The position numbers and the translations under genes were made by a program. Under the pieces are notes generated by a model, which had not been told where the DNA came from, searched no databases, and worked only from the letters and a program-made list of their open reading frames with translations. From Sphingobacteriales bacterium 50-39 (GTDB lineage Bacteria > Bacteroidota > Bacteroidia > Chitinophagales > Chitinophagaceae), in contig MKTZ01000027.1 of NCBI GenBank assembly GCA_001898505.1, forward strand, positions 248,001 through 312,000: a stretch of DNA of 64,000 nt, in the 5' to 3' direction. Positions 28,773-40,076 of the stretch are shown piece by piece (position 1 is the first letter of the stretch; each line of letters begins with the position of its first letter).

Positions 28773-28796
28773 AGCCCCGCTTCGGTGGGGCTTTTT
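28773..28796 (+). terminator. Intrinsic terminator after hicA
   Basis: AGCCCCGC-ttcg-GTGGGGCT with a UUCG-type loop is followed by a TTTTT run. It closes the hicBA unit and isolates it from the TetR gene. Confidence 0.8.
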
Positions 28797-28822: not shown

Positions 28823-28863
28823 TCAATTTTTCAAATAAATTAATAAAATGTTTGAAAAATTGA
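28823..28863. promoter_or_regulatory. Perfect 13-bp inverted repeat, probable TetR operator
   Basis: TCAATTTTTCAAA (28823-28835) and TTTGAAAAATTGA (28851-28863) are exact inverse complements around a 15-base AT spacer. The repeat lies 48 bases before the preferred TetR start codon at 28911 and covers an alternative ATG at 28848. No T-run or GC stem is present, so it is not a terminator. Such a site suits autoregulation by the downstream TetR protein. Confidence 0.6.
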
Positions 28864-28910
28864 TTTTTAGCTCTATATTCGGAAAACGGACCGGGGCGCC
28901 CCCAAGGAAT

Positions 28911-29513
28911 ATGAACAAAAAAGAACAGGTAAGGATCAAGATCGGGCTGATTGCCATGCAGTGCTTTTCTAAATATGGATTGGATAAGACCACCCTGGAT
29001 GACATCGCCAAAGCCGTTGGACTCAATAAGGCTTCCCTGTATTATTATTATAAGAACAAAGAGGATATTTTTTTGGAAGTAGCCATCCGGGAAGGGGAGG
29101 ACTTCCTCGCTACCCTGCAGAAGAAGGTGATGGAGCAGAAAAGCACGGAGGCCCGGATCACCTATTATCTCAGGGAGCGGGTGAATTACTACAAAAATGT
29201 GTTGAACATGAACCGGGTGTCGACGGATACCCTCAATAAGATGCTCCCGAAGTTTTTTGAGCTATTCGATGCTGTGATGAAAAAAGAGGCCCAGTTCCTG
29301 GCATTGCTGATAAAGGAAGGCGTGAAGAAAGGAGAATTGCATACCGTCAATGCAGCGAAACTGGCTTCCTCCCTGATCAGTATGAACGATGCTTTAAAAC
29401 ACCATGTGGAGCAAAAGGCTATCCTGAAGATGCAGCAGGATATAGATTATTCCCAGATCATGGAGGAAATGGGGCTCCTGATAACGTTGATCTTCAAAGG
29501 GCTGAAAAAATAG
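28911..29513 (+). CDS. TetR/AcrR-family transcriptional regulator
   Basis: I choose the ATG at 28911 (AAGGAATATG, a plausible ribosome site) rather than the ATG at 28848, which lies inside the inverted repeat and would add a 21-residue tail unlike TetR proteins. The 200-residue product has the N-terminal helix-turn-helix (about 8-52: [20 protein letters not shown], then [19 protein letters not shown]) and a helical ligand-binding domain. By family knowledge it represses its neighbours until a small hydrophobic ligand binds. Four bases separate it from the aldehyde dehydrogenase ATG, so the two form an operon and the ligand may be the aldehyde or its precursor. Confidence 0.92.
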
Positions 29514-29517
29514 ATCC

Positions 29518-30897
29518 ATGAACCACCTCGTATCCACCATACCCGAACTGCCCGCCATGCGCAGGTATTTTGAAAGTGGCGTTACGAGGTCTTATGCTTT
29601 CAGAAGACAGCAATTGATCTCGCTGAGACGGGCGCTCATGAATAACGAAGATGCGATCTACAAGGCCTTGTATGCCGATCTGAGGAAGGGCCCTGAAGAG
29701 GCCTATGCTACCGAGACAGGCATTGTGCTGACGGAGATAAGGGTTGCCTTGAAAAACCTACGGCGATGGATGCGCCCATCCGCCGCTCGAACCAATCTGC
29801 TCAATTTCCCTTCCTCTGGAAGGATCTATCATGATCCGCTGGGTCTTGTGCTGATCATTGCACCCTGGAACTATCCCATACAGTTGCTGCTGACGCCGCT
29901 CGTCGGGGCTATTGCAGGAGGCAATGGGGTCGTGTTGAAACCGTCGGAAATGGCTCCTGCTACTGCCTCCATTTTGGGCAGGATCATACAGGAGGCCTTC
30001 CCTCCGGAATATATAACCCTTGTGCAGGGAGATGGAGCAGAAGTAGTACCGGCTTTACTGAATGGCTTTCACTTCGACCATGTCTTCTACACAGGCAGTA
30101 CGGAAGTGGGAAAGCAGATCTATCAACTGGCGGCCAAGGACCTTGTTCCCGTTACGTTGGAGCTTGGCGGCAAAAGCCCTGCTGTTATTCATTTGGATGC
30201 AAACCTGGAAGTGGCGGCCCGACGCATCGTGATGGGAAAATTCATAAACGCCGGCCAGACCTGTGTAGCTCCGGACTACCTCCTGGTACATCACGCGATC
30301 AGAGACCGCTTCCTGGAATTGCTGCAGAAGACGATCAACCAGTTTTTCGGTGACAAGCCAGCCGGGAACGACGGTTACGGCAGGATCGTACATGCCAAAA
30401 GATTTGACCGGCTGTTGAGCTATCTATCGGAAGGTGAGATCATAATAGGAGGTGACTACGACCGGGCAGACCTGTTCATGGCTCCGACGGTCATGGATAA
30501 TGTGCCTCTCGATTCAGGGCTCATGACAGAGGAGATCTTCGGTCCCATATTACCGGTATATGGATTCGATACGGTGGAGGAGGCTGTGGAATTGATAAAA
30601 AGGAATCCGAACCCTCTTGCCTTTTATGTATTTACCGAGGGCGATCCAAAAGCCTGGGTGGAGCAGCTGGCTTTCGGCGGCGGCTGTGTGAACAACACAC
30701 TGTGGCATTTAGCCAATCATTACCTGCCTTTTGGCGGCATAGGCGGCAGCGGTATAGGAGCCTATCACGGCAGGTATTCCTTTGAGACGTTCACCCATGC
30801 CAAGCCGGTGATGAGATCGCCGGTGTGGTTCGATCCGGGGATCAAGTACCCTCCCTTCGCCGGTAAATTAAAATGGTTCAAACGGATGATCCGGTGA
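29518..30897 (+). CDS. NAD(P)-dependent aldehyde dehydrogenase, ALDH3-like
   Basis: A 459-residue enzyme oxidising an aldehyde to the acid. Family hallmarks are IIAPWNYPIQLLLTPLVGAI, KPSEMAPATA, the coenzyme loop FTGSTEVGKQI (here YTGSTEVGKQIY), the catalytic glutamate in TLELGGKSPA and the nucleophilic cysteine in NAGQTCVAPDY. The compact length and the C-terminal hydrophobic tail segment resemble the class 3 fatty or coniferyl aldehyde group. It is coupled to the TetR gene and followed by a terminator before the TonB gene. The likely substrate is a medium or long-chain or aromatic aldehyde, inferred only from subfamily. Confidence 0.92.
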   Translation: MNHLVSTIPELPAMRRYFESGVTRSYAFRRQQLISLRRALMNNEDAIYKALYADLRKGPEEAYATETGIVLTEIRVALKNLRRWMRPSAARTNLLNFPSSGRIYHDPLGLVLIIAPWNYPIQLLLTPLVGAIAGGNGVVLKPSEMAPATASILGRIIQEAFPPEYITLVQGDGAEVVPALLNGFHFDHVFYTGSTEVGKQIYQLAAKDLVPVTLELGGKSPAVIHLDANLEVAARRIVMGKFINAGQTCVAPDYLLVHHAIRDRFLELLQKTINQFFGDKPAGNDGYGRIVHAKRFDRLLSYLSEGEIIIGGDYDRADLFMAPTVMDNVPLDSGLMTEEIFGPILPVYGFDTVEEAVELIKRNPNPLAFYVFTEGDPKAWVEQLAFGGGCVNNTLWHLANHYLPFGGIGGSGIGAYHGRYSFETFTHAKPVMRSPVWFDPGIKYPPFAGKLKWFKRMIR

Positions 30898-30903
30898 CGT
30901 AGG

Positions 30904-30929
30904 CCAGGTCTGCTCTGGGACCTGGTTTT
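30904..30929 (+). terminator. Intrinsic terminator after the aldehyde dehydrogenase gene
   Basis: CCAGGTC, an eight-base loop, GACCTGG and TTTT. It would end the TetR-ALDH message and make the TonB receptor the first gene of a separate unit, or allow partial read-through. Confidence 0.55.
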
Positions 30930-30977
30930 CCGGAAACCCCCTTCTGACATACTATCGATAATTTTAAACAGCTTGCT

Positions 30978-33737
30978 ATGCGAAAAATTGCATTCCTGGC
31001 ATTCTATGCCCTAAACTTTCTCCCGCTAATGACCCATGCGCAGCATATTCTCAGCGGAATGGTGCGCAACAGCCTGACCAAAGAACCCATCCCGGCAGTT
31101 TCCATATCCGTCCGTAATACGCCGGAAGGAGATTATACGAATGACAGGGGCAAGTTCAGCTTTACTGTCAGCAAAGTCCTTCCTGTGACGATCGTGGTCT
31201 CTTCCGTTGGATATGGGACCAGGGAGGTCCTTGTCACCGACCTGCAAACTCCGTTGATCGTGGAGCTGGAGCCTACCTCTTCTTTGGGAGATGCAGTCGT
31301 CGTATCGGCCAGCCGGACTATACAGAAGAAACTTTCTTCACCGGTGACGATCGAGCAGATCAGCAATAAGGATATTATCAATTCCCCCCAACTGAATTAC
31401 CTGGATATGGTCCAGGGATTGAAAGGTGTCGACGTCACGGTATCCAGCCTCGGCTTTACCTCCGTGACCACCCGTGGTTTCAATACCAGCGGCAATACAA
31501 ATTTCACGCAGATCGTGGACGGAATGGATAACCAGGCTCCCGGCCTCAACTTCCCGCTGGGTTCAGCCATCGGTCTCACCCAACTGGACGTAGACAATAT
31601 CGAGATGCTTTCAGGCGCTTCGTCCGCGCTCTACGGATCGAGAGGTTTGAATGGGACCATGGTAATGACGGGTAAGAACCCATTCAAATACCAGGGGTTG
31701 AGCATACAGATCACACAGGGATTGAATCATGTAAAGAACTCGGGCACGAATGATCCCGTAGGGCCTTCCCCCTATTATGACTGGTCCCTGCGCTGGGGCA
31801 AAAAGATCAGCGACAAGCTGGCCTTTAAGATCAATGTCCAGTATACCCGGGCAAAAGACTGGGTGGCCACCGATACGACCAATAAAAACGGTCCCGGTTC
31901 GAAATATACGGATCCCAACTACAACGGCGTCAATTTTTATGGGGGCGCCACTTCCGTAGACATAACGCCCTTTCTACAGGGGGCGCTGGCCGCGGACGCC
32001 TCGCTGGCGCCTATTGTCAATCCAATGCTTGGCAATCCCAGCAATTATGTGGCCCGTACGGGATATGCCGAATATGGGTACCTGGATAATAATGCCACGC
32101 TTTTCAAGACGAATGCAGAATTGAGGTATAAGATCAATCCCCGCCTGGAGGCCATCTTCTCCGGCACTTTTGGCACAGGTAGCGTAGTATATACCAATGA
32201 CACCCGGTACCAGATCAAGGATTTTAAAGTGGGCCAGTACAGGGCGGAGCTGAAAGCGGCTGACTGGTTCGTCCGGGCCTATACCACACAGGAGAATTCC
32301 GGCAATACCCTTATCGCAGGTCCTACGGCGCAGCTGATCAATGAGGCATGGAAACCCAGCTACGATCCCAATACCGGAGATGGATGGTATCCCCAATATA
32401 CGGCAGCCCTGCTTGGGGCCCTGGCCGGAGGCGCCAGCCAGACGGATGCTAATTTATTTGCCAGACAGCAGGCGGACCAGGGTATGCCGCCCGCCGGCAG
32501 CAGTCGGTTTATGCATTTGAAGGACAGCATATCCTCCACGCCCATTACCAAGGGCGGGACCTTGTTCCTGGACAGGAGCAAATTATATAACGTGGAGGCG
32601 CAATACAATTTTTCCCGCCTGATCCCTTATGTGGAAGTCATTGCCGGACTGAACTGGCGCCTGTACAGGCTCAATTCGAAGGGGACCCTGTTCCCGGATG
32701 ATGACAAGCCTATCAATGTCAAAGAATACAGCGCCTATGTGCAATTGTCGAAAAAACTATTGCAAAACAAATTAAGCCTGAGCACATCTTTCCGATTTGA
32801 CAAAAACACCTTGTTCAGCTCACCGAAGATCACCTCGCGGGCCTCTGCGGTATATGAAGTGGTAAAGGAAAATTACATCCGCCTGTCCTACCAGAATGCC
32901 TATAGCTTCCCGTCCAATATTCAATCCCTTCAAAATACCCTGAATGGTTATAACAGTTACGCGTCCGGAGGATCGAACCTGCTCCTGGTCGACCATTATC
33001 ATTTTGACCAGTACGCACCCTACACCCTGGAGAGTGTGACGGCATACCAAAATACGGGCGACGCATCGAAATTGCAGCGATTCTATTACAGCGATATAAA
33101 ACCTCAATCTACCAATGCTTTTGAGCTGGGCTACTCATCCCTGATAGCCGGGCGGATCCTGGTCGATGTGCTGGGCTATTTCTCCATCTGGAAGAATTTT
33201 ATCGGGTACGCCAATGTCGCCAACACACCGGGAACGCATGATGTGAATGCCTTCAAAGATCACAGTACCTACACTCAATACAATATTGCCTTCAACGGCG
33301 GGGAGAAAGTGAATACCTATGGATATGCCGCCAGTGTCAGTGTAGACCTGACCCATAACTTTCTCGCCAAGGTCAATTATTATTCCGACTACCTGGTGAA
33401 TAAGAATAATAGCCAGATCAACAATTTCAATACCCCTCATTATCATATCAACATGGAACTGGGCAATAGCGGGTTCGGAAAAAAGCAGCTTTGGGCGTTC
33501 GGAGCCTCCCTCCGGTATAAACCAGGATATTATTATGTTGTGTCCGGCGGTCTGGCCAGCGGTACCGTCCCGGCTTCTGTGGTCCTGGACGCACAGGTGA
33601 GCTATAAGCTGCCCGCGGCGCACTCGGTGATCAAACTGGGCTCTACCAATATCACAAATAAATATTACTCTACCGGTACCGCGAACCCATCTATAGGCGG
33701 AGTATATTACGTCACCTATGCTTATAACTTATTCTAG
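30978..33737 (+). CDS. TonB-dependent outer membrane receptor
   Basis: A 919-residue receptor with signal peptide (MRKIAFLAFYALNFLPLMTHAQ), a carboxypeptidase-regulatory-like domain (about 24-100), a plug domain (about 105-240, with FTQIVDGMDNQAPGLNFPLG and MLSGASSALYGSRGLNGTMV) and a 22-strand-type barrel ending in GGVYYVTYAYNLF, an aromatic-terminated strand typical for BAM targeting. There is no partner SusD gene, so it is not a classic glycan SusCD system. It is 27 bases from the beta-helix lipoprotein gene, suggesting one operon for a surface uptake function. Ligand unknown. Confidence 0.93.
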   Translation: MRKIAFLAFYALNFLPLMTHAQHILSGMVRNSLTKEPIPAVSISVRNTPEGDYTNDRGKFSFTVSKVLPVTIVVSSVGYGTREVLVTDLQTPLIVELEPTSSLGDAVVVSASRTIQKKLSSPVTIEQISNKDIINSPQLNYLDMVQGLKGVDVTVSSLGFTSVTTRGFNTSGNTNFTQIVDGMDNQAPGLNFPLGSAIGLTQLDVDNIEMLSGASSALYGSRGLNGTMVMTGKNPFKYQGLSIQITQGLNHVKNSGTNDPVGPSPYYDWSLRWGKKISDKLAFKINVQYTRAKDWVATDTTNKNGPGSKYTDPNYNGVNFYGGATSVDITPFLQGALAADASLAPIVNPMLGNPSNYVARTGYAEYGYLDNNATLFKTNAELRYKINPRLEAIFSGTFGTGSVVYTNDTRYQIKDFKVGQYRAELKAADWFVRAYTTQENSGNTLIAGPTAQLINEAWKPSYDPNTGDGWYPQYTAALLGALAGGASQTDANLFARQQADQGMPPAGSSRFMHLKDSISSTPITKGGTLFLDRSKLYNVEAQYNFSRLIPYVEVIAGLNWRLYRLNSKGTLFPDDDKPINVKEYSAYVQLSKKLLQNKLSLSTSFRFDKNTLFSSPKITSRASAVYEVVKENYIRLSYQNAYSFPSNIQSLQNTLNGYNSYASGGSNLLLVDHYHFDQYAPYTLESVTAYQNTGDASKLQRFYYSDIKPQSTNAFELGYSSLIAGRILVDVLGYFSIWKNFIGYANVANTPGTHDVNAFKDHSTYTQYNIAFNGGEKVNTYGYAASVSVDLTHNFLAKVNYYSDYLVNKNNSQINNFNTPHYHINMELGNSGFGKKQLWAFGASLRYKPGYYYVVSGGLASGTVPASVVLDAQVSYKLPAAHSVIKLGSTNITNKYYSTGTANPSIGGVYYVTYAYNLF

Positions 33738-33764
33738 GACTTTGTTCACCTCAAATCAACATAT

Positions 33765-35066
33765 ATGCAAATTTTTATGAGATCAAACGGTAGTCTTCTA
33801 CTCATAGCCGCATTCTGCTGTATGCTTTTCGCCTCCTGCAACGGCCATGAGGAAAAGGCCGGGGACGAAGGATATAAGACTACCCTGACCTTTGGACCGG
33901 GCCAGGAGGCTAAGATTGCCGAAGCCTTTTTGTCCCTGAAGGACAGCTCCGTCATCCGGCTAGCGGCAGGTCTGTATAAATTCGATAACCTAAGCCTTGC
34001 ACAGCTCCGGCATATCCTCATCAGTGGAGAAGGGGCTGGTAAGACCATCCTGGATTTTTCCAGTCAAAGTCAGGGTGGAGAGGGGATCCGGGTCACCGAC
34101 CTGAAAGGTTTCACCATCCAGAATATGACCATGCAGAATTCCAAGGGGGACCTGCTAAAGATCAACAAGAGCGAAAACGTGGTCATCACCAACGTACACG
34201 CCATCTGGGAAAAGGCTGATTCTTCCAGCGGAGGCTATGCCATCTACCCTGTCCTTTGCAAGCATGTCCTTATCGACAGTTGCGTTGCCAGGGGTTCATC
34301 GGATGCCGGTATTTATGTAGGTCAGTCGGATAGCGCGATCGTCCGGCATTGCAATGCCTTCAGCAATGTGGCAGGCTGCGAGATCGAAAATACGACCCAT
34401 GCCGAGGTGTATGATAACGAGTTTCATGACAATACTGCGGGTTTCCTCGTCTTTGACCTGCCGGGCCTATCGAAACGCGGAGGTTTCGTAAAAGCCTACC
34501 GCAACAATATTCACAACAACAATATCCGGAACTTTGCGAAAGCCGGCAGCTTCGGTACCGCCTGGGGGGTTGGAAATGCTTCTCCCGGCAGCGGTGTGAT
34601 CATCCTTGCTACTTCAAATGTGGAGATCTATGAGAACCAGATCAAGGATAATAACTCCTGCTCCATCACCATCGCATCCGGTCTTGCGGTGGATGACAAA
34701 GCCCTTGAAAAGGTGGGTGACAGCTATTTCCCTATCTCCAAAAATATCAGCATACACGATAATACCGTATCGATGGGCAATGCTTTTCCCCAACCTGCTT
34801 ATGAACATCACATTGGCAAGATACTGGTAGGGATAGAGCAGCAGTTAATTGCACAGGATGCATCCCGGAAAGGCAAGCGGCTGCCCTTCATCATGTATGA
34901 CGGTATTTCGACAAACCTGCTGACCCATGGCGCTGCAGCCAACCCGGACTCCCTGTGCATCGGACAAAGCGGGGAGAATATGTTTGTCAATGCAGATTTT
35001 CTGAATATCCGCACTCCGGCAAAATGGCATCCGTCGACTGACATGACGCCCTATCGTTGTAAATAA
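33765..35066 (+). CDS. Parallel beta-helix repeat lipoprotein (TIGR03805-like)
   Basis: A 433-residue lipoprotein: the signal peptide ends in LFASCNGHEEK. The mature protein is a right-handed beta-helix with repeated turns such as VVITNVHAIWEKADSSSGG, VLIDSCVARGSSDAGIYVGQ, AIVRHCNAFSNVAGCEIEN and VYDNEFHDNTAGFLVFD. An ATG at 33777 is an alternative start that trims four residues. The combination with the next gene matches a known two-gene partnership of a beta-helix protein and a dihaem cytochrome, both exported, whose function remains unknown. The beta-helix could be a carbohydrate lyase or epimerase fold, but no catalytic signature is evident. It is probably attached to the outer membrane. 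Confidence 0.88.
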   Translation: MQIFMRSNGSLLLIAAFCCMLFASCNGHEEKAGDEGYKTTLTFGPGQEAKIAEAFLSLKDSSVIRLAAGLYKFDNLSLAQLRHILISGEGAGKTILDFSSQSQGGEGIRVTDLKGFTIQNMTMQNSKGDLLKINKSENVVITNVHAIWEKADSSSGGYAIYPVLCKHVLIDSCVARGSSDAGIYVGQSDSAIVRHCNAFSNVAGCEIENTTHAEVYDNEFHDNTAGFLVFDLPGLSKRGGFVKAYRNNIHNNNIRNFAKAGSFGTAWGVGNASPGSGVIILATSNVEIYENQIKDNNSCSITIASGLAVDDKALEKVGDSYFPISKNISIHDNTVSMGNAFPQPAYEHHIGKILVGIEQQLIAQDASRKGKRLPFIMYDGISTNLLTHGAAANPDSLCIGQSGENMFVNADFLNIRTPAKWHPSTDMTPYRCK

Positions 35067-35080
35067 TCCAAAATTCTCTC

Positions 35081-36208
35081 ATGACAAAGGCATATTTTTT
35101 GACGCTTGTACTCTTCGCATCGGTCGTGACCGGCCTCTGGGTCTTACCAGGCTGCCGAAACGGGTCTTCAGGCGGGGTACACGACACTGCGACAGGCGGG
35201 GGTGTGACGACAGGCGGCGGCGCAACAACAGGAAAGAGCGCGGGTTTTGTTTTTAAAGAAAAACTTTCTGAATATGGATTTTTCAAAGGCAGACTGGCCG
35301 ATCTTGTCCCATCGGAAGGATTGACGTCTTATGAATTGGTTACACCCCTGTTTACGGACTATGCCCTCAAAGATCGTTTCATCGCATTGCCCACAGGTAA
35401 GAAAGGCCGCTACCTCTCCCAGGGAGTAATGGCCTTTCCCGACTCCACGATCATCATTAAGAACTTCGCTTACCGGAACCCGGCAAAGCAAAAGATCATG
35501 ATCGAGACCAGGCTGCTGGTGAAAGATCCTGGGGACGGGGCCTGGAAGGTGATGGATTATCTCTGGGACAGCACACAGACCGATGCTGTCAGGCATATTA
35601 CGGGAGCCAAGGTTCCCATCATCCTGCTGGATGACAAGGACAATCGGATCTCTACCGTCTACCAGGTGCCCAATACCAATGATTGCAAGCGGTGTCATTC
35701 GAACAACAGTATACTGTCCCCCATCGGTCCGAAGGCGAGGAACCTGAATTTCGTGCGGGAAGGCCATACCCCCAATCAGCTGGCTGAATGGGACCAAAAG
35801 GGCATTATAGAGGGGCTTCCCGCACTGACCCAGGTGGCACAGCTACCCGATTGGAAGGACAGTAAGCATTATACGCTTGAGCAAAGGGCCAGGGCCTACC
35901 TGGATGTGAATTGCGCGCATTGTCATACCCAGGGCGGCGATGCTTTGAATACGGGGCTGTTCCTTGAATATGAGCAAAAAGACCCGCAGCATCTGGGTAT
36001 CCTGAAATCTCCCGTCTCCGCGGGAGGAGGGGCAGGGGGGCTGAACTACGATATCATGCCGGGGGATGCGGGTCATTCCATCCTGGCATACAGGATGAAC
36101 AGCATAGAGCCGGGTACAGCCATGCCAGAACTGGCCCGGACCGTCATACACCGGGAAGCCGTCAAATTGATCGTGGATTGGATCAATTCCATGCATGAGA
36201 AGAAGTAA
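35081..36208 (+). CDS. SO2930-type dihaem c-type cytochrome lipoprotein (TIGR03806-like)
   Basis: A 375-residue lipoprotein: the signal ends LWVLPGCRNGSSGG, followed by a Gly/Thr-rich spacer to about residue 50. Two haem c sites occur, NDCKRCHSNN (about 205) and VNCAHCHTQGGD (about 285). The opening FKEKLSEYGFFKGRLADLVP and the motif YELVTPLFTDYALKDRFIALP are characteristic of this family. It starts 14 bases after the beta-helix gene. By context it would pass electrons from an oxidised substrate at the cell surface or periplasm. Partner and acceptor are unknown. Confidence 0.9.
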   Translation: MTKAYFLTLVLFASVVTGLWVLPGCRNGSSGGVHDTATGGGVTTGGGATTGKSAGFVFKEKLSEYGFFKGRLADLVPSEGLTSYELVTPLFTDYALKDRFIALPTGKKGRYLSQGVMAFPDSTIIIKNFAYRNPAKQKIMIETRLLVKDPGDGAWKVMDYLWDSTQTDAVRHITGAKVPIILLDDKDNRISTVYQVPNTNDCKRCHSNNSILSPIGPKARNLNFVREGHTPNQLAEWDQKGIIEGLPALTQVAQLPDWKDSKHYTLEQRARAYLDVNCAHCHTQGGDALNTGLFLEYEQKDPQHLGILKSPVSAGGGAGGLNYDIMPGDAGHSILAYRMNSIEPGTAMPELARTVIHREAVKLIVDWINSMHEKK

Positions 36209-39418: not shown

Positions 39419-39575
39419 ATGTAAGCATATCCTAATGGCATTCCCTTAGCAGGCTAAAAGCCTTCAAAAGCCAGTAATGGCGCGAAAATCACTGTATAAA
39501 AAATTAAGCAACAAATTTTAATATTATTACCAGATATACCCTCCAACTTTGTATTTTTACCCCAAATTGTCTGGC

Positions 39576-40076
39576 ATGAAGCTTTTTGTAGCAGGTTTAC
39601 CTTCTGATTTTGATGATGTTGATCTGAAAGAAATGTTTGAGCTGTATGGCGTAGTGAATACCGCAAAAGTTGTCCTCGACAGAGAGACGGGAAAAAGTAA
39701 AGGCTTTGGTTTCGTAGATATGCCCGATGACCTGGAGGCAAAGGGGGCGATCGAAACCCTGGATGGTGCTGCCATCAGGGGTAAGAAGCTGGCCGTGAAA
39801 GAAGCGGAAGAGCAGTCCAGAGGTGGCGGCGGTGGCGGCTTCAATCGTGGAGGCGGCGGCGGTGGTTTCAACCGTGGTGGCGGCGGTGGCGGGTACAACC
39901 GCGGCGGCGGCGGTGGAGGTTTCAATCGTGGCGGCGGCGATGACCGCGGACGCGGACGTGACGACCGTGGAGATCGCGGGGATAGGGGAGACAGGGGAGA
40001 CCGTGGCGGAGATAGAGGTGGAGACCGTGGCGGCTGGCGTCCTCCTGGTGGCGACGATCGTGGCAGAAGATATTGA
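39576..40076 (+). CDS. RRM RNA-binding protein with glycine-rich RGG tail
   Basis: The ATG at 39576 begins MKLFVAGLPSDFDDVDLKEM, a textbook RRM opening, so the upstream in-frame TTG is rejected. The 166-residue protein has one RRM (1-79) with RNP2 LFVAGL and RNP1 KGFGFVDM, then a tail of four near-identical nine-residue units GGGGGG[FY]NR (39822-39929) and a long DRG/RGG run. By family knowledge single-RRM proteins of Bacteroidota are cold- or stress-induced RNA chaperones; the tail could drive condensation like eukaryotic RGG proteins. The gene is monocistronic. Confidence 0.95.
   Translation: MKLFVAGLPSDFDDVDLKEMFELYGVVNTAKVVLDRETGKSKGFGFVDMPDDLEAKGAIETLDGAAIRGKKLAVKEAEEQSRGGGGGGFNRGGGGGGFNRGGGGGGYNRGGGGGGFNRGGGDDRGRGRDDRGDRGDRGDRGDRGGDRGGDRGGWRPPGGDDRGRRY

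Follow-up and report, generated by a model that had tools for sequence, protein, structure and literature searches.

What might a TonB-dependent receptor do together with two exported proteins whose families, TIGR03805 and TIGR03806, are assigned no function in their model descriptions? The question is raised by a locus of Sphingobacteriales bacterium 50-39, which we analysed within a stretch of 64,000 nucleotides (the window) of contig MKTZ01000027.1, which belongs to a genome of 7.9 Mb assembled in 27 contigs. A preliminary description of the window, made from the sequence alone, had placed five co-directional genes here, and they are indeed all carried by the + strand: genes for a TetR-family regulator, a class 3 aldehyde dehydrogenase (ALDH), the receptor, a parallel beta-helix lipoprotein (TIGR03805) and a dihaem c-type cytochrome lipoprotein of the SO2930 family (TIGR03806). 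The intergenic gaps, taken from the coordinates, are 4, 80, 27 and 14 bases. Our answer, offered tentatively and with a little less than even confidence, is that the locus is a locally regulated envelope redox-and-import operon, with the ALDH as an optional finishing enzyme.

Conservation of the receptor, beta-helix and cytochrome genes

The receptor (30978..33737, +; 919 residues) contains the Plug domain PF07715 and CarbopepD_reg_2. It is followed on the same strand by the beta-helix gene (33765..35066) and the cytochrome gene (35081..36208), whose products exceed the cut-offs of TIGR03805 (295.7 bits; cut-off 141.5) and TIGR03806 (347 bits; cut-off 313.3). Two conserved receptor peptides were scanned against genome contigs, and the best 80 of 92 relatives, chosen by receptor similarity, were kept. 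These 80 loci belong mainly to Chitinophaga, Pedobacter and Sphingobacterium, but also to Mucilaginibacter, Niabella, Flavihumibacter, Pinibacter, Pseudoflavitalea, Ferruginibacter, Chryseolinea and Segetibacter; the record of one (L192) is titled Beijerinckiaceae.

The full trio of receptor, beta-helix and cytochrome was present in 69 of the 80 loci (67 by gene calls, plus L163 and L172 on re-reading; a tblastn count also gave 69). Six others kept the receptor and the beta-helix protein, but their cytochrome is replaced by a MauG/MbnH-like dihaem protein together with a cytochrome c. In one locus (L204), the contig runs out inside the beta-helix gene. The last four (L209, L212, L213 and L215) have distant receptors (40–43% identity), other neighbours and no trio, and were not counted as members. 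A set of haem protein, beta-helix and receptor was found in all 75 loci that are neither cut off nor distant. In every one of the 67 loci with complete gene calls the trio is co-stranded, with median gaps of 21 and 11 bases (ranges −115 to 84 and −26 to 251). The window receptor is 64–80% identical to 12 family members. Mean column identity was 76% for the receptor (13 family members), 56% for the cytochrome and 51% for the beta-helix protein; these figures are not directly comparable because the latter two come from other, wider sets. Judged from these alignments and gene orders, the receptor is strongly conserved, and receptor, beta-helix and dihaem protein form a conserved operon core, in line with the earlier suggestion that receptor and pair form a unit.

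That TIGR03805 and TIGR03806 recur as a pair, as had also been stated, was borne out. Among 296 Bacteroidota genomes, TIGR03806 scored over its cut-off in 19 and TIGR03805 in 21, the latter being all 19 TIGR03806 genomes plus two more (G033 and G134; Fisher p 5e-28 for co-occurrence, relatedness ignored). TIGR03806 was likewise over its cut-off in 4 of 33 genomes of the genus and in 27 of 244 of the family. When weaker cytochromes were included, the beta-helix gene lay directly before the cytochrome gene, on the same strand, in 38 of 66 cytochrome-cluster loci. In the family sample, receptor, beta-helix and cytochrome occurred together in 12 of 32 fetched loci; the contigs of L108 and L118 are cut beside the pair or the cytochrome, and the remaining loci with the pair are without a window-type receptor. 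A distantly related receptor lies near the pair in two phylum loci (L047 and L048; 67 and 73 bits). The cytochrome-based and receptor-based locus sets overlap in genomes (e.g. L106 and L137), and their counts are not additive. The curators of the two families have reportedly noted the pairing already. The window pair agrees with it in that both members exceed their curated cut-offs and are adjacent, in the order seen in relatives, but differs in its setting, an operon that also encodes a receptor, TetR and an ALDH and has a palindromic site.

The beta-helix protein and its haem partners

The beta-helix protein, with a lipobox-like FASC, is the sole TIGR03805 match over the cut-off in its own genome. 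Its predicted structure (mean pLDDT 90.1) was nearest to mannuronan epimerase A-modules (Foldseek, E about 1e-7), and the matches include alginate epimerases, PL6 lyases and polygalacturonases. This resemblance raises the possibility of polysaccharide or oligosaccharide use, in which a lyase- or epimerase-like beta-helix protein and haem chemistry that oxidises the chain would supply oligomers to the receptor. Polymer degraders are among the host organisms, and one related locus, L237, encodes SusC and a SusD-like protein. We nevertheless consider this explanation unlikely: the five operon proteins include no SusD, glycoside hydrolase or lyase family, the receptor reaches only 23.5 of 46.2 bits for the SusC signature TIGR04057, and its conservation, to go by the column identity given above, seems unusually high for a glycan importer. 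Ordinary SusCD import was rejected, SusD being absent in the window. The preliminary description had argued from the missing SusD that glycan import is not involved; the absence stands among the operon proteins, but the argument is weakened both by L237 and by the nearness of the beta-helix model to polysaccharide epimerases and lyases.

The cytochrome, with a lipobox-like LPGC, has two CXXCH motifs, as do all 68 relatives counted. C202, C205 and H206 and likewise C278, C281 and H282 are invariant in 33 aligned sequences. The mean pLDDT of its model was 83.3.

Which haem protein accompanies the beta-helix protein is variable. The six loci with the MauG-type protein (L170, L179 and L193–L196; protein families were checked in L170, L193 and L196) all encode cytochrome c. 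In L143, L144 and L145, the cytochrome is kept and a weaker MauG-like match lies further away. Locus L237, found via TIGR03805, has the gene order LytTR, MauG-like, beta-helix, SusC, SusD-like, PKD protein, class 3 ALDH, nitroreductase. In L238 (7686-9980), a single protein of 764 residues consists of a MauG/MbnH-like dihaem half and a TIGR03805 beta-helix half; the fusion gene lies upstream of BatA/BatB/BatD-like genes. Pseudomonadota neighbourhoods of TIGR03805 were reached through plasmid records only. Ruegeria pomeroyi has a set of cytochrome c, CCP, TPR and TIGR03805-type proteins. A Novosphingobium plasmid carries ALDH, AdhP, a receptor split by IS5, a beta-helix protein and an SO2930-family cytochrome; a PQQ dehydrogenase and another ALDH are encoded close by. 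The swaps in six loci, the Ruegeria set and the fusion tie the beta-helix protein to dihaem redox chemistry. Nine residues (Y71, D97, K127, Y158, D180, Y184, R194, E206 and E208) are common in the alignment to trio-type and five MauG-type beta-helix proteins and may constitute a functional patch.

These partners bring to mind the uptake of a metal, such as copper, or of a metallophore: the receptor would import a chelate, the NosD-like beta-helix protein would handle the metal, and the dihaem protein would reduce or modify a metal-binding site, so that the trio might be likened to MbnT/MbnP/MbnH. TIGR03805 proteins do show weak similarity to NosD, and the replacement of the cytochrome by MbnH-like proteins fits. 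According to the available part of PMC3621798, methanobactin operons combine TonB transporters with the exported dihaem protein MbnH and its partner MbnP. The match of the MbnH-like proteins to TIGR04039 is, however, far under the cut-off of 362.85 bits (224.5 bits in L170, 219.6 bits in the fusion protein) and is found in the variant loci only. None of the five window proteins matches a copper-receptor or MbnP-type family, a beta-helix protein standing in place of MbnP; the regulators are TetR or LytTR; and the ALDH and flavin monooxygenase (FMO) neighbours would require a separate explanation. We therefore regard metal uptake as distinctly improbable, and membership in the methanobactin systems was rejected because the cut-offs are not reached.

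Further relatives of the two families were seen elsewhere. One TIGR03805-type protein of G033 (L236) adjoins a radical SAM protein. A long protein follows the TIGR03806-like cytochrome in nine phylum-sample loci (L053–L055 and L057–L062); in L057 and L061 this other kind of cytochrome partner is an FG-GAP/ASPIC-UnbV protein carrying a secretion-tail domain. Divergent TIGR03806-like cytochromes preceded by a regulator occur in the own genome (L069:8245-13956, contig C4) and in some of L131–L135. The regulator is AraC-type in L135, with related genes in L069, L133 and L134. An anthrone-oxygenase-like (ChrI-like) protein comes after the divergent cytochrome in L069 and L132–L135, and in L069 the third gene after it encodes a PQQ dehydrogenase-like protein.

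The aldehyde dehydrogenase and other optional neighbours

The ALDH (29518..30897, +; 459 residues) matches PF00171 with 302 bits. Of the solved chains, the top-ranked one, 6k0z, bears only the name aldehyde dehydrogenase; it is followed by 3sza, 8bb8 and 9ig2 (dimeric NADP-preferring) and 4qgk (fatty) and, further down, by 5ucd (benzaldehyde) and 1ad3 (class 3). Its domain and these structures assign the enzyme to the class 3 kind, as had been proposed. It falls short of the benzaldehyde dehydrogenase MdlD (NF045701, 409.7 of 550 bits).

The preliminary description had also expected a conserved linkage of ALDH to the trio. Counting class 3 ALDHs of more than 150 bits within 7 kb of the receptor, we found them near 17 of the 80 receptors (13 TetR-type and four LytTR-type loci); nearby ALDHs of another class in L151 and L200 were left out. 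The gene lies upstream inside the operon in four loci, divergently in four and downstream of the cytochrome gene in nine. Three further upstream cases are the window itself and the family loci L107 and L109. The linkage thus recurs in other genera, in other positions and beside the MauG/beta-helix/SusCD locus, but it is optional, and among loci that have the pair but not a window-type receptor, the one instance is L123, with a class 3 ALDH three genes away from the cytochrome gene. A quick tree, whose branches are long, unites the class 3 ALDHs linked to the trio in one clade with a family-type and a Sphingobacteriaceae-type subclade. Recruitment from a resident paralogue is possible, since L226, a further class 3 ALDH from the window's genome, groups with the family-type subclade, as does that of L123. 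FMO-like proteins are encoded near 5 of the 80 receptors; on this distribution, ALDH and FMO are both optional neighbours. A gene of the fatty-acid-hydroxylase family follows the cytochrome gene in two ALDH-type loci (L106:10306-11124 and L109:2923-3741).

Could the ALDH and TetR be a separate detoxification pair that by chance stands ahead of the receptor operon? The 80-base gap between the ALDH and receptor genes would allow it, as would the 16 of 29 TetR-type loci without a class 3 ALDH within 7 kb. Yet in all 16 of them TetR still adjoins the trio (the contig of L204 stops within the beta-helix gene), and class 3 ALDH genes also occur behind the cytochrome gene, in nine loci of Sphingobacteriaceae, and in divergent orientation upstream, in four of Pedobacter/Mucilaginibacter. 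The whole genome, moreover, holds only 10 ALDH matches at E 1e-20, that of the window included. A chance neighbourhood therefore seems to us quite unlikely.

Regulators, palindrome and promoter-like element

The TetR-family regulator (28911..29513, +; 200 residues) matches PF00440 with 54.8 bits. Control by TetR had been proposed in the preliminary description; such a regulator stands at only some of the loci. The regulator next to the receptor is TetR in 29 of the 80 loci and LytTR in 44; none has both. The seven with neither are the four distant receptors, L165, L193 and L194 (the contigs of L193 and L194 begin close by). On the receptor tree, in which L165 was entered as LytTR (45 instead of 44), the regulator label requires 5 changes against a mean of 24.7 after shuffling.

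A 33-bp palindrome (28827..28859, no strand assigned), the putative TetR operator, is conserved ahead of the TetR gene among trio loci of the TetR type. A matrix was made from 30 upstream sites, one of them misplaced (L167, wrong gene start). At 20 bits or more, it found 39 sites in 3.12 Mb (+ strand, some genomes twice), a sequence set that includes the matrix's own 30 sites, versus none in the reversed sequence. Thirty-six of the 39 adjoin an annotated TetR gene, two (L192 and L116, the same region) adjoin a TetR gene missed by the open reading frame (ORF) caller, and one lies elsewhere (L205:20443). In L152, L199 and L207, the palindrome stands between TetR and a divergent FMO gene. Searched in the own genome with at most 3 mismatches, the palindrome core gave one match, the window site, with 0 mismatches; the core pattern read backwards gave 2 chance matches.

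The palindrome occupies the region around the start of the longest TetR ORF (28848), so the ATG at 28911 is the better start. A promoter-like element, TTTG-N19-TATATT (28851..28879, +), overlaps the downstream half of the putative operator. Elements of the form TTTG-N16-21-TAnnTT, which we take to be the Bacteroidota promoter consensus, follow 22 of 29 operators (shuffled mean 2.85, maximum 8). By its sequence, then, the conserved palindrome overlies a promoter-like element before TetR. Upstream of the receptor gene, no palindrome was common to more than 3 of 30 TetR-type loci.

Boundaries of the unit

The five-gene unit probably ends after the cytochrome gene, because a convergent ORF of 113 residues (36561 down to 36220), for which no Pfam match was found, stops 11 bases beyond it. 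Upstream of the palindrome, a GC-rich hairpin followed by T's was seen by eye at about 28773-28796. Elsewhere in the window, 39549-40076 encodes a protein with an RNA-recognition motif and a long glycine-rich tail.

Discussion

In the envelope redox-and-import operon that we propose, the receptor would recognise one well-defined ligand. The groove of the beta-helix lipoprotein would be the place where this ligand, or a precursor of it, is bound or chemically altered; electrons for this step would be given or taken by the dihaem protein, and the product would be imported by the receptor. In genomes like that of the window, the class 3 ALDH would then oxidise an imported carbonyl product to the acid, and in some species an FMO may act on the product instead. 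A ligand of TetR would relieve repression of the operon. In a more specific version, the TIGR03805 protein would be a catalyst that depends on haem, or an enzyme that its dihaem partner (TIGR03806 or MauG-like, once fused to it) matures, and its extracytoplasmic carbonyl product would be imported by the dedicated TonB receptor; this we put forward as a rather doubtful possibility.

Several observations weigh against the proposed operon. The members of the pair are not neighbours in four phylum genomes (G013, G034, G131 and G190), and pair loci without a window-type receptor have no TetR/ALDH unit. No class 3 ALDH lies within 7 kb of 63 of the 80 receptors, some of whose contigs are short. The fold match of the beta-helix model is moderate (TM 0.47–0.52 by query for AlgE4/AlgE6). 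The cytochrome model had no PDB match at E 0.001, so this search turned up no relative of known structure for its N-terminal beta domain. The export signals do not favour surface exposure of the cytochrome: among proteins with a detected lipobox, the mean number of acidic residues at +2 to +8 after the lipid cysteine was 0.93 for beta-helix proteins (56 of 71), 0.24 for cytochromes (41 of 71) and 0.62 for 122 other putative lipoproteins, by a rule not established for these genera. The piece of the Novosphingobium receptor that was compared has no recognisable similarity to the window receptor, and the Novosphingobium ALDHs belong to classes other than class 3. Finally, in the 19.5 kb of G033 that were examined, no dihaem partner of its TIGR03805-type proteins was recognised.

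Among known systems, the polyethylene glycol operons of sphingomonads encode a receptor (pegB) and an aldehyde dehydrogenase (pegC). Set beside the window by description, not by sequence, they share the logic of receptor plus aldehyde dehydrogenase; unlike them, the five genes of the window include no alcohol dehydrogenase, have a different regulator and contain the beta-helix/dihaem pair instead. The narrower claim of the preliminary description, that an alcohol, alkane-derived or aromatic compound is the substrate, was rejected for want of direct evidence, as nothing identifies such a compound. The available part of PMC4837345 lists SO2930 in a table among outer-membrane or extracellular cytochromes of Shewanella, with no function given there. 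Our literature search returned no paper on the receptor core, the partner swaps or the operator.

The presence of this gene set in many soil Bacteroidota points to an undescribed oxidise-and-import system. If the more specific version is true, an oxidise-then-import system absent from the literature searched would have been found. Two curated families without an assigned function become a system open to test, in which the receptor is fixed, the dihaem partners and the two regulators are exchangeable, and a TetR operator is predicted. A single reporter driven by this operator would allow candidate inducers to be screened, and the inducer would give a first hint of what the TIGR03805/TIGR03806 pair acts on.

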